Assembly: GCF_016863555.1 (NCBI RefSeq)
Contig: NZ_BOPC01000049.1
Location: 1-64,000 of the forward strand
Direction: 5' to 3'
Source of the DNA: Micromonospora qiuiae
GTDB taxonomy: Bacteria > Actinomycetota > Actinomycetes > Mycobacteriales > Micromonosporaceae
DNA: 64,000 bases
The notes under the pieces were generated by a model. The model did not search any database and was not told the DNA's origin. It saw only the letters and a program-made list of their open reading frames with translations. How positions within the stretch are numbered: position 1 is the stretch's first letter; every line of letters starts with the position of its first letter. Positions 11,491 to 26,863 of the stretch are shown one piece after another. A program made the position numbers and the translations under genes.

Positions 11491-12635
11491 GATTCGAGAT
11501 CAGCAAGGTGCTGGACGCGATCGAGGGTCGGGTCTGCACCGACCCTCAGCTGGTCCGGGCGGTGATCGACCTGGCCGAGATCATTCGGTACCAGGACCTC
11601 GACGGCGGGCGCCCGGCCAGCACGCTGCGTCTCGGTATGGTCATCGACGCGCTGGCGCGCAGCCTGGAGGAGGACAGCGTCCCGGTCTACGCGGTGGTGC
11701 ACCGGGGGGTGCTCTCCGACGCCGACCTGACCTCCAACGAACGCATGGTGGTCCGCCGCTGGGCCGACGACGGCCTGGTCGAGGTGCTCGACAACCCGGG
11801 TGACCGGATGCTGGAGGTCGCCGACCTGCTCGGCTTGCCGGTGCTCAGCCGGGTCCGTTTCGACGGCCTGCGCGGGCGGTTCCCCTGGCTGGTCGAGCAG
11901 CCTGGCCGGGCGCTCGCGCCGGTGCCCGGTGCCGGCGGGCCGGTTTTCATCGCCCACGTCGGTGGCGGTCACACGCCGGTGCCCGGGCCACCGTCGCCGG
12001 CCGCGGCGAAGCTGCTCGCCCGGGAATGGCGCTGCCCGGAGTCGGGCTGCAACCTGTTCGGCGGTGGTGGCGGAGGCGGTGCCTTCGCCGACCTGGCCCG
12101 GGTGGACCGCGCGCCGACCGGCCAGCCACCACCGTCACTCCGGGGCGGCGTGCCGACCTGTCCTCGGCACGGCACCCGGCTCCGCGACGTCGGGCCCCGG
12201 CCGCGCAGCGAGGTCCTCGCGGTACGCGTCGGCGGCCTGATCCGGCGTCGCTTCGTGCTCACCGAGGAGCAGCCGGTGACGGTCGGTCGGGCGCCGGACG
12301 GCTCCAACGGAATCATGCTCGGCCAGTGGCTCAACGACGAGGCCCGCCGGTGGATCAGCCGCAGCCACCTCCGGTTCGAGCTGCGCGGCGCCGACGTCGT
12401 GGCCACCGACGTGAGCACCAACGGCTCCGGCATCCGGCCGGCCGGCTCGATGGCGGAGGCGGACCGCATCCCCCTGCCACCGCAGCAGTCCCGGGTCCTC
12501 GGCGCCGGCGACATGGTGGAGCTCTATCCCGGCGTTCAGATCGCTCGTCCGGGAGACCTACCGGCCGGCGCACCGTACAACCCCGACTCGGTGATGTCCG
12601 AGGCGCCCACCATGGCGATGCGCCTGCCCCGCTGA
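11487..12635 (+). CDS. FHA-domain protein with uncharacterised N-terminal region
   Basis: The 382-residue cytosolic protein ends in a forkhead-associated domain (about residues 255-345) with the expected GRAPDGSN and SRSHLRFEL blocks and a conserved STNGSG turn. FHA domains bind phosphothreonine peptides, so a partner of a Ser/Thr kinase such as the one at 3563-5149 is plausible but unproven. The N-terminal 170 residues are not recognised; a middle segment has Cys pairs (CPESGC, then CPRHG) that could form a small zinc-binding module. It starts at the ATG in ATGA of the preceding stop. A hairpin terminator separates it from the convergent rocD. Confidence 0.85.
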   Translation: MRFEISKVLDAIEGRVCTDPQLVRAVIDLAEIIRYQDLDGGRPASTLRLGMVIDALARSLEEDSVPVYAVVHRGVLSDADLTSNERMVVRRWADDGLVEVLDNPGDRMLEVADLLGLPVLSRVRFDGLRGRFPWLVEQPGRALAPVPGAGGPVFIAHVGGGHTPVPGPPSPAAAKLLAREWRCPESGCNLFGGGGGGGAFADLARVDRAPTGQPPPSLRGGVPTCPRHGTRLRDVGPRPRSEVLAVRVGGLIRRRFVLTEEQPVTVGRAPDGSNGIMLGQWLNDEARRWISRSHLRFELRGADVVATDVSTNGSGIRPAGSMAEADRIPLPPQQSRVLGAGDMVELYPGVQIARPGDLPAGAPYNPDSVMSEAPTMAMRLPR

Positions 12636-21580: not shown

Positions 21581-21640
21581 GGTGTAAGGAAGGGCCCCTT
21601 CTTAACGCCTCCGGTAGAGCAGGGGCCCCTTCTTAACACC
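21581..21640. repeat. Palindromic GGGCCC/AACGCCT element, copy 3
   Basis: Outer ends GGTGTAAGGAAGGGCCCC and GGGGCCCCTTCTTAACACC are inverted, with AACGCCTCCGGTAGAGC in the middle. It starts directly after the GH16 stop and lies between two tandem genes, so it may act as a terminator. Confidence 0.9.
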
Positions 21641-25201: not shown

Positions 25202-25738
25202 GGCCCGCCGGTCACCCCTGCCGTCGGTGAGCGCCGCGACGTCACGCCCGTTTGGGGGGCGGCTGCGGTCCGGTCCGTCTCGATCCGCCAGCCCGGCAGC
25301 CCGTACGCGCAGTCGCCCTGGCGGCGTGAGTACGGCGCGCTGTGGGACATCGGCCCGCATGCCCTGGCGATCCTGCTGCCGGTGCTCGGCCGGGTGGCCC
25401 GGGTGGTGGCCGTCGACGGGCCGGGCGGCCTGGTGCACCTGCTGCTCACCCATGACGGCGGGGCCGTCAGCACGGTGTCGCTGGCCCTGGACGCCCCGCC
25501 GGCGGCGGTGGCCGGCGAGTTCGTTTTGTACGGCGAGAACGGCGTCGAGCCGGTCCCGATCCCGGACGGGAGCCCGGCGACCGCGTTCGGGGTGGCGATC
25601 GACCAACTGTTGGCCGAGAACGACGCTGGCACCCGGGACCACCGCTGCGACGTGCGCTTCGGGCGTGAGGTGGTGGCCGTGCTCGCCGCCGCCGAGGCCG
25701 CCCGCGCCCAAGCCACCCCCGTCGATCTGCCCAGCTGA
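25202..25738 (+). pseudogene. 5'-truncated Gfo/Idh/MocA-family oxidoreductase
   Basis: The frame is open from just after a TAG at 25199 and matches only the C-terminal two thirds of the family. The block YGALWDIGPHALAILLPVLG is the characteristic substrate-domain motif, followed by beta strands (VHLLLTHDGGAVSTVSLAL) and the end VLAAAEAARAQATPVDL. The N-terminal Rossmann fold with its GxGxxG motif is missing, and no start codon with a ribosome binding site precedes the surviving part. It is probably a relic; an internal GTG at 25382 could yield only a non-catalytic 118-residue fragment. Confidence 0.75.
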
Positions 25739-25778
25739 GCAGACCGGAAAAGCGGTGGATGGGGGAGGCGGCAATCGG

Positions 25779-25784
25779 TAGGGT
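25779..25784 (+). promoter_or_regulatory. -10 box TAGGGT before the erm leader ORF
   Basis: TAGGGT lies 7 nt upstream of the ATG at 25792, the same spacing as at other leaderless genes in the window. No clear -35 is visible. Confidence 0.4.
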
Positions 25785-25791
25785 CGCGGCC

Positions 25792-25905
25792 ATGGCTATG
25801 TACGCTCTGATCAACGCGGCCGTCGCGTCGGCCGCGTTCGGGCCGCTGTTGCAGGCCCGCCCGCGAGTCCGGCGTCCGGCCCTGGCCGGCGCGATTCCCG
25901 ACTGA
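25792..25905 (+). CDS. Candidate 37-residue erm leader peptide with +X+ motifs
   Basis: A leaderless ATG with a -10 box 7 nt upstream opens a 37-codon frame that ends 160 bp before erm. The peptide starts MAMYALINAAV and contains RPRVRRP at residues 23-29. That holds two overlapping Arg-x-Arg (+X+) motifs (R23-P-R25 and R25-V-R27), the motif known to stall ribosomes in the presence of macrolides in ErmDL-type leaders. The gene is not a recognised family. High Arg content is frequent in GC-rich chance ORFs, so the assignment rests on promoter, position and motif together. Confidence 0.4.
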   Translation: MAMYALINAAVASAAFGPLLQARPRVRRPALAGAIPD

Positions 25906-25979
25906 CGCCTCCGCGTACGCCTCCGGCACCCGCCTGCCCATCGCAGGTCGCCGTGCCCTCGCGCCATCTCACCAGGGTC

Positions 25980-26057
25980 GTCCGAGTCTTTGATCCCTCG
26001 GACAGGCCCCGCTCGCGGCTGCCTGTCCGCATCCGTCGCCGTCCGGCGACAGACAGG
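25980..26057 (+). promoter_or_regulatory. Mutually exclusive hairpins in the erm leader (candidate attenuator)
   Basis: Hairpin A pairs 25980-25986 with 25997-26003. Hairpin B pairs GGACAGGC (26000-26007) with 26021-26028. Hairpin C pairs 26022-26027 with 26052-26057 and contains a nested 6-bp stem (26035-26040 with 26045-26050). A excludes B and B excludes C. C overlaps the likely AGGA ribosome binding site just before the erm ATG. Confidence 0.45.
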
Positions 26058-26065
26058 ACGACGCC

Positions 26066-26863
26066 ATGGCATCCCGCCGAACCCGCACCACCGAACGCGA
26101 CCGGTCCCGTCGCGTACTCTCGCAGAACTTTCTCGCCGACCCGGCCGCAATCGCCCGGATGGTCGACGCTGCCCGCCCGGATCCCGACGGACTGGTGCTC
26201 GAGGTGGGTGCCGGGCGTGGGCAACTGACCCGGCCACTGGCCGCGCGCTGCGGCCGGCTGGTCGCGTACGAGGTGGATCCCGACGCCGGGGCGGAACTGG
26301 CCAAAGTCTGCGCGACCCTGCCCACGGTCACCCACCGCCAGTCCGATTTCCTCGCCGCGCCGCCGCCGCGCGAGGAGTTCGCTGTGATCGGCAACATCCC
26401 GTGGTCGCTGACCGCGGCCGTGGTGCGCTGGTGCCTGGCCGCGCCCCGGCTACGTACGGCGACCCTGTTGACTCAGTTGGAGTACGCCCGCCGCCGCGCC
26501 GGTGACTACGGCCGGTGGACCCGGCTGACTGTACTGACCTGGCCGGAGTTCGACTGGCGGTTGGTCGGGCGGATTCCGCGCACCGCGTTCCGCCCGGTGC
26601 CCCGGGTCGAGGCGGGCATTCTGCGCATCGAGCGGCGGAAACAGCCACTGGTGGCGGCCTCTGCTCTGCCGTCGTACCGCCGGATGGTCGAGCTGGGCTT
26701 CGGCGGCGCCGGCGGTTCCCTCGCGGCGTCGTTGGCCCGCCGGTACCCGCGAGCCCGGCTGGCGGCGGCCCTGCGAGCCAGCCGACTCGACCCGGCCGTG
26801 CCGGTCGGGCACGTCTGGCCCGAGCAGTGGCTGACCCTGTACCGCCTGCTCCACGCCCGCTGA
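26066..26863 (+). CDS. erm: 23S rRNA (adenine-N6) methyltransferase, Erm family
   Basis: The 265-residue protein methylates A2058 of 23S rRNA (E. coli numbering), giving macrolide-lincosamide-streptogramin B resistance. It has the N-terminal RRVLSQNFLADP block, the SAM-binding motif I VLEVGAGRGQLT, and motif IV GNIPWSLT (Asn110), where the usual aromatic Tyr/Phe is Trp. It is distinguished from the housekeeping KsgA by the QNFL start and the RPVPRVEAGILRI end region. Actinomycetes carry such genes intrinsically or beside macrolide biosynthesis genes; no biosynthesis genes are visible here. An erythromycin-esterase homologue lies 350 bp downstream. A palindromic element follows the stop. Confidence 0.92.
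   Translation: MASRRTRTTERDRSRRVLSQNFLADPAAIARMVDAARPDPDGLVLEVGAGRGQLTRPLAARCGRLVAYEVDPDAGAELAKVCATLPTVTHRQSDFLAAPPPREEFAVIGNIPWSLTAAVVRWCLAAPRLRTATLLTQLEYARRRAGDYGRWTRLTVLTWPEFDWRLVGRIPRTAFRPVPRVEAGILRIERRKQPLVAASALPSYRRMVELGFGGAGGSLAASLARRYPRARLAAALRASRLDPAVPVGHVWPEQWLTLYRLLHAR

Follow-up and report, generated by a model that had tools for sequence, protein, structure and literature searches.

A macrolide-arrest leader followed by an attenuator is a well-known kind of control element of erm genes. The ErmC attenuator is built of four segments, of which 3 and 4 together hide the Shine-Dalgarno sequence while pairing of 2 and 3 frees it, and the stalled ribosome itself masks segment 1. Among actinomycetes, erm genes with inducible attenuation, such as those of ErmSV and ErmSF (tlrA) in Streptomyces, have become known one gene at a time. 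ErmDL, the leader of ErmD in Bacillus licheniformis, has 14 codons. It was reported to be a short ORF before erm with an Arg-x-Arg motif (RLR at codons 6-8), acting with the middle residue of the motif in the P site and through refolding of the mRNA (PMC8298421). The uORF attenuator of whiB7/wblC was reported to act on an activator through transcription attenuation, which in mycobacteria involves a stem-loop and a U-rich stretch (PMC4128351). A 2024 survey of about 250 bp before erm reported upstream ORFs as annotated in 14 of 35 known genes and predicted for 21 of 43 further homologues, and concluded that upstream ORFs of erm are not universal (PMC11264731). A Shine-Dalgarno search for prokaryotes is described as part of uORF4u (PMC10219788).

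The erm locus described here lies in the window, i.e. the whole stretch of 64,000 nucleotides (64 kb) of a Micromonospora contig that was analysed, and the ORF upstream of the gene is likely, judging from the comparisons given below, to be a leader that regulates a chromosomal erm gene, makes it inducible by macrolides and works with a long-range relay. Like ErmDL it is a short ORF before erm, with an Arg-x-Arg motif whose middle residue would occupy the P site and with a downstream mRNA that could refold; unlike ErmDL it has 37 codons with the motif at codons 23-25, no Shine-Dalgarno sequence, a WblC-type promoter and a proposed relay helix, called for by the roughly 95 nt that separate the stalled ribosome from the hairpins. 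The possible pairings 3:4 and 2:3 are common to ErmC and the Micromonospora module, but segment 1, unlike that of ErmC, is out of the ribosome's reach, and a segment of the leader, termed segment 0, is proposed to capture it. The whiB7/wblC uORF is likewise actinobacterial, antibiotic-responsive and ribosome-mediated, whereas the target of the Micromonospora leader is erm and its putative signal a macrolide-arrest motif.

By title and abstract, no description of this leader was found among the matches listed, most subscription papers being outside the scope of the search. What seems to be new is the leaderless form, the WblC-type promoter, the family-wide conservation, the relay helix and the near-universality in the actinomycete erm loci examined (72 of 74); leaderless leaders may escape searches of the kind cited above. 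As actinomycetes make macrolides, the leader also gives a testable picture of drug sensing by relatives of the producers.

The erm gene and its leader ORF

The erm gene (26066-26863, forward strand) encodes a 23S rRNA (A2058) methyltransferase of the ErmE/ErmH/ErmO/ErmR type according to NCBIfam and Pfam (PF00398), and exceeds the curated cut-offs of NF000337 (355.9 bits, cut-off 320) and NF000499 (244.3 bits, cut-off 212). The genome is 6.76 Mb in size, and the closest named Erm relatives are from Micromonospora (M. sonchi, 95% identity). Next to erm lies an erythromycin-esterase family gene (PF05139, 27135-28472), with a relative in all 30 loci that include downstream DNA (L001-L030). An element, GAAGGGGCCC / GGGCCCCTTC, is repeated in the window at 21592, 21623, 24303, 26904 and 53605, one copy being 3' of erm. 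Just 5' of the leader, a 118-codon ORF (25382-25738) without a Pfam match gives the impression of being the tail of a Gfo/Idh/MocA-type oxidoreductase.

The leader ORF has 37 sense codons on the forward strand (25792-25905; ATG at 25792, TGA at 25903-25905) and encodes the peptide MAMYALINAAVASAAFGPLLQARPRVRRPALAGAIPD, with a gap of 160 nt between its stop codon and the erm ATG at 26066. The first-pass annotation had proposed just such an ORF, beginning behind a -10 box 7 nt upstream of its ATG and stopping 160 nt before erm, and its coordinates are borne out exactly: TAGGGT at 25779-25784 is followed by 7 nt and the ATG. A further in-frame ATG lies at 25759 (48 aa), but the -10 spacing and the relatives favour 25792. 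Residues 23-28 read RPRVRR and contain R-P-R and R-V-R; both of the Arg-x-Arg motifs pointed out in that annotation are thus present, but only the first, R23-P24-R25 (25858-25866), is conserved between genera. Ribosomes are proposed to stall there with P24 in the P site and R25 in the A site.

Upstream of the -10 box, sequence comparison with the published motif identifies a putative -35 element (TGGATG, 25756-25761, fitting TKGMNN) at a distance of 17 bp and, 3 bp 5' of the latter, an A-rich box (GAAAAG, 25747-25752) of the type bound by WblC/WhiB7 activators. The genome also encodes a WhiB protein with an RGRP hook (C14:63650-63796), the hook being the mark of WblC/WhiB7. The WblC motif reported for S. 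coelicolor is GAAAWY, 3 bp, TKGMNN, 16-19 bp and TANNNT, with the start 7-8 bp after it (PMC7157823), and the spacings found here (3 bp and 17 bp) fit, while the A-rich box agrees with GAAAWY in five of six bases, the last being G and not Y. In S. coelicolor, WblC was reported to raise an Erm(O)-type gene, and SCO6089 to belong to the WblC regulon (PMC7157823). From the predicted WblC-type promoter we infer that transcription starts at the leader ATG.

ORFs of 8-60 aa following TANNNT-N6-8-[AG]TG were also scanned for on both strands of the window. Four such leaderless-type ORFs were found, two of which contain [RK]x[RK], and the leader ORF is the only one of the four with an A-rich box near the -35 position. 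It has no NCBIfam or Rfam match, and the region 25500-26200 matches no known RNA family in Rfam up to an E value of 1.

Conservation of the leader in actinomycetes

The genus sample comprised 90 Micromonospora loci that have an Erm relative, counting that of the window, and was taken without the split or partial loci G073, G021, G123 and G147 and the loci of about 39% identity in G087, G062, G012 and G140. A leaderless ORF of the leader kind is present in 86 of the 90, and also in other Micromonosporaceae, so that the conservation in related genomes that the first-pass annotation had named as a check is indeed found; the 86 include L087 (Erm 59% identical), whose leader peptide is rather different. 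The four misses are L069, L081, L088 and L089. For L069 and L081, the leader profile locates a leader beyond the stretch read but within the genome concerned (G100:C38 and G059:C274), while no such leader was seen at L088 and L089, which have distant Erms (53% and 48% identity).

The profile, built from 25 leaders, also matched in other genera, and 18 of the 19 matches outside the genus that were chosen for reading have erm 0.1-0.4 kb downstream. The remaining match, L135, was rejected, as it has no erm downstream and sits inside a longer open frame. In all, 115 Micromonosporaceae loci were considered; 18 of the 25 from outside the genus were picked by leader-profile match, so the unbiased rate comes only from the 90 genus loci. 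Of the 115, 109 were tabulated. Outside the table are L069 and L081, whose leader is outside the stretch, L088 and L089, with no motif, L137, whose frame changes after RLR, and L197, with another leader and the motif RCR.

The promoter arrangement recurs across the tabulated loci: with 5-8 nt allowed, the -10 box stands 7 nt from the start codon in 78 of the 109 and 6 nt from it in the other 31, and among the 107 with enough upstream DNA an A/T triplet (AAA, AAT, TAA or ATT) occurs within 14 nt around the A-rich box in 106, and exact GAAAWY in 42. The spacer between leader and erm varies from 84 to 385 nt in the table. In L069, direct repeats of a CACTTCGCCGAGGTGG-like unit enlarge the spacer 300-600 nt 5' of erm.

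In a separate test on named genomes, many of whose assemblies recur among the loci above, 77 of 80 loci were used, 74 of them actinomycete. Within 600 nt of erm, 72 of these 74 have a leaderless ORF of 8-60 aa, where dinucleotide shuffles give 1.9; the ORF contains [RK]x[RK] in 68 (shuffles 0.9), is accompanied by an A-rich box in 64 (0.06) and has both in 60 (0); none of the three non-actinomycete erm loci has a leaderless ORF in the same scan. All 24 actinomycete erm loci outside Micromonosporaceae (eight of Nocardiopsis, six of Amycolatopsis, three each of Actinomadura and Catenulispora, two of Glycomyces and one each of Streptomyces and Nocardia) have a leaderless ORF with Arg-x-Arg, and 19 of them the A-rich box as well. 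By eye, their leader peptides are unlike the Micromonospora leader, and that of Streptomyces sp. GESEQ-35 (L200) resembles the ErmSV leader.

An orphan leader in a genome of the genus (L138; G003:C19:9200-12700, leader 12231-12341, minus strand) is intact together with its promoter and runs into the downstream neighbours, the erm gene being gone. In two other genomes (G123:C1:1675665-1676447 and G147:C100:58310-58997) the erm matches are in two frames or two pieces, as in decaying genes, and G123 retains the leader.

The proposed arrest motif

In the 109 tabulated loci, which were selected with the pattern R-x-[RWG] or RRxR, the motif stands at one fixed place and is R-x-R in 104 (RPR 88, RLR 13, RTR 2, RRR 1) and R-P-W in five, its middle codon lying six codons (107 loci) or five codons (two loci) ahead of the A30 codon. 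The second motif is lost in L017 (RPRAQR), L130 (RLRFQR) and L139 (RLRAGR), among others, and R25-V26-R27 was rejected as the main arrest site because it is not conserved between genera. In L137 the frame differs after RLR, which gives another later peptide, and the RNA GCCCUG is kept.

Codon changes were counted as the fewest changes on the Erm protein tree for 85 Micromonospora leaders. Codon 25 underwent at least 14 third-base changes, with all four bases in use (A/G/C/T 40/22/20/3), and three amino-acid changes, all from R to W. As third-base changes are many and amino-acid changes few, this comparison indicates that Arg25 is kept as an amino acid, i.e. by selection on the peptide. Arg23, with no amino-acid and 15 third-base changes, is probably kept as an amino acid as well; Arg28 has no amino-acid and 10 third-base changes, but uses only C and U. 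Codons 29, 30, 31 and 33 show 0-3 amino-acid and 0-1 third-base changes, and codon 32 four of each, so that codons 29-31 look as if they were kept as nucleotides too. Codons 6, 9, 12, 13, 22 and 27, several of which change their amino acid freely, likewise use just one third base; codon bias or further constraints on the RNA may play a part in such fixation, and since it occurs outside segment 0, fixed third bases are a weak sign alone, and it is the pairing evidence that carries the claim on the RNA.

Reported erythromycin-arrest motifs include +X+, X+P and XPW, and also +XW (PMC8298421, PMC13410324). Since a change from R to W yields R-P-W, which fits the reported motif XPW, one arrest motif would have been swapped for another at the same codon. 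According to the work on ErmDL, not every +X+ motif stalls ribosomes, and the Arg-x-Arg of ErmDL is strictly needed for telithromycin, not for erythromycin (PMC8298421). With the R-to-W replacements and the pairing codons, a seemingly peptide-selected and a seemingly RNA-selected part can be told apart within 11 codons.

The putative attenuator before erm

Directly 5' of erm there is a family-wide module made of CCAGGGYCGUCCGAG (segment 1), CUCGGACAGGC (segment 2), GCCUGUCC (segment 3), a small hairpin and GACAGGAC (segment 4). In the window, the 3' part of segment 1 (GTCCGAG, 25980-25986) forms the 5' limb of hairpin 1:2; segment 2 (CTCGGACAGGCCC, 25997-26009) can pair with segment 1 or segment 3, and segment 3 (GCCTGTCCG, 26021-26029) with segment 2 or segment 4. 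The small hairpin (GTCGCC...GGCGAC, 26035-26050) lies between segments 3 and 4, and segment 4 (26052-26059) holds the erm Shine-Dalgarno sequence AGGA, all on the forward strand. Helices 1:2 and 3:4 are thus mutually exclusive with 2:3, and the Shine-Dalgarno sequence is within 3:4, which is the arrangement of an ErmC-type attenuator.

The helices were tested on 44 selected sequences against 500 shuffles. Helix 2:3 is paired in 95.7% of cells, with six cells changed on both sides (1.3 in shuffles), and helix 3:4 in 99.2%, with three cells changed on both sides (0.3 in shuffles) and five of its six pairs invariant; both score higher than every one of the 500 shuffles in cells paired and in covariation. 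For helix 1:2, which pairs in 90.2% of cells, covariation does not exceed that of shuffles, and one pair fails in 13 of the 44 sequences. When slid, pairing of 1:2, 3:4 and 2:3 falls to 16-51%. The small hairpin, paired in 97% of cells, covaries most, with a change from U-A to C-G at one pair in 18 of the 44 sequences, and in L122, L126 and L127 segments 2, 3 and 4 have changed together (GGACCGG, CCGGUCC and GACUGG). The alternative hairpins that the initial reading had noticed downstream of the ORF are therefore conserved, and two of the three helices covary above shuffles.

The proposed relay helix

The toeprint of a stalled ribosome places its front edge at +16. With P24 in the P site, this distance puts the front edge at about 25877, and the classical ErmC picture of a stalled ribosome lying on segment 1 was rejected, as an edge at that position cannot reach segment 1 at 25972. 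Because the leader is too far away for the stalled ribosome to cover the hairpins, a relay helix between codons 29-32 and 25972-25980 is proposed. Codons 29-32 (CGGCCCUGG) are complementary to the downstream sequence CCAGGGYCG, the 5' limb of the erm attenuator. The leader partner, segment 0 (CGGCCCTGG, 25877-25885), begins 16 nt downstream of the start of codon 24, so that its first base coincides with the estimated front edge, and its target is the 5' part of segment 1 (CCAGGGTCG, 25972-25980).

Pairing was counted in 107 loci, without L025 (segment 1 CCAGGGCCG, whose next bases fail the anchor) and the diverged L128, and with segment 1 placed by hand in 23. Helix 0:1 is paired in 96.1% of 963 cells, against 30-56% when slid by 1-3 nt. 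In relatives the leader stop lies anywhere from 14 to 292 nt before segment 1. At the second base of codon 31 the pair is U-A in 92 loci, C-G in 12, among them L190 from a named Actinoplanes, and U-G in three, and none is broken, the search pattern for segment 1 having allowed only A or G there, so that C or U on the target side would go uncaught. On the tree, the leader base changed at least three times and the target base at least four times, which is too few for a sign test. Pair 8 is open in 16 of the 107 loci (C-C in 14), and L122, L126 and L127, from another genus, have C-G in place of G-C at this pair. By eye, segment 0 may also form a local hairpin with the codons after it in several genera.

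With segment 0 free, the minimum-energy folds of all six loci inspected contain helix 0:1 in full or in part, and barring segment 0 from pairing costs 6.1-13.7 kcal/mol. In equilibrium folding of 103 loci, freeing as against blocking segment 0 made the Shine-Dalgarno sequence more open in 17 and less open in 17, with no change in 69. When the module was folded by itself with the 5' part of segment 1 blocked, openness rose in five and fell in 24 of 89. Neither calculation reproduced the switch, which counts against it. As the Shine-Dalgarno sequence stays paired at equilibrium whether segment 0 is free or blocked, the last step of the proposed switch rests on inference about kinetics or the bulk of the ribosome.

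Proposed mechanism and alternatives

We propose the following order of events. Transcription from the WblC(WhiB7)-type promoter would begin on the A of the leader ATG or right beside it, and the leader would therefore be translated without a Shine-Dalgarno sequence. Once a macrolide occupies its tunnel, the ribosome would halt at R23-P24-R25 with P24 in the P site and its front edge just before codons 29-32, and would shield segment 0 from trailing ribosomes. Segment 0, being shielded, could then pair with CCAGGGYCG of segment 1, whose first base is 95 nt downstream of that of segment 0. Helix 0:1 would take the 5' limb away from the folds that hide the Shine-Dalgarno sequence, either 1:2 with 3:4 or 1:4 with 2:3 (when the module is folded, both 1:2 with 3:4 and 1:4 around 2:3 appear), leaving helix 2:3 and allowing erm to be translated. 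In the absence of the drug, ribosomes would run through segment 0 and the Shine-Dalgarno sequence would stay hidden.

A short, GC-rich frame without an NCBIfam or Rfam match might be thought a chance reading frame, but this explanation is refuted by the shuffle comparison (72 of the 74 actinomycete loci, where 1.9 would be expected), the window scan and the pattern of codon 25 (14 third-base against three amino-acid changes), and we give it practically no weight. It is also very improbable that erm is under WblC alone, the ORF being incidental or encoding a small protein with a role elsewhere. Such control would agree with the WblC-type promoter, with the WblC-like protein in the genome and with the place of SCO6089 in the reported S. 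coelicolor regulon (PMC7157823), whereas the complementarity of codons 29-32 to the erm attenuator, the retention of RLR and the RNA GCCCUG in L137 despite a later peptide in another frame, and the recurrence of R-x-R in dissimilar leaders of other genera all count against it.

The same leader and the same stall could also work a switch at the level of transcription, in which the structure between leader and erm would end transcription unless a ribosome stalls; we regard this as unlikely. Streptomyces tlrA is subject to transcriptional attenuation, and the spacer here is C-rich and untranslated, both of which count for such a switch. Ribosome-mediated transcription attenuation in actinobacteria was moreover reported as proposed for are5sc and described for wblC (PMC12421871), and was reported also for Mtb whiB7 and ilvB1 (PMC13236596). 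On the other hand, no intrinsic-terminator-like site was found in 25600-26200, the hairpins have no U tract, and helix 3:4 with the erm Shine-Dalgarno sequence is possible in 99.2% of cells, all of which counts against a transcriptional switch.

Leaders beyond Micromonosporaceae

A broader reading, which we offer tentatively and would put at somewhat below an even chance, is that chromosomal erm genes of Actinomycetia share one device, in which a WblC-type promoter precedes a leaderless ORF with Arg-x-Arg. It would amount to a double lock, requiring both general translation stress, sensed via WblC, and a ribosome-bound macrolide, and the arrested ribosome would mask no hairpin but guard a distance-acting helix that starts at its own front edge. 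Under the same tentative reading, the device would have been overlooked because searches look for ORFs led by a Shine-Dalgarno sequence, and, as the leaders are unlike between genera, the design would have been either reinvented or diverged beyond recognition.

Complementarity between leader and spacer in the 24 loci outside the family is not significant in 20. It reaches p of at most 0.005 in three, all of Nocardiopsis (L201, L211 and L212), and p = 0.035 in one Glycomyces (L206). The three Nocardiopsis loci have in their spacer an exact complement of 10-11 nt that starts 13-15 nt after the P-site codon, which is much the geometry of segment 0.
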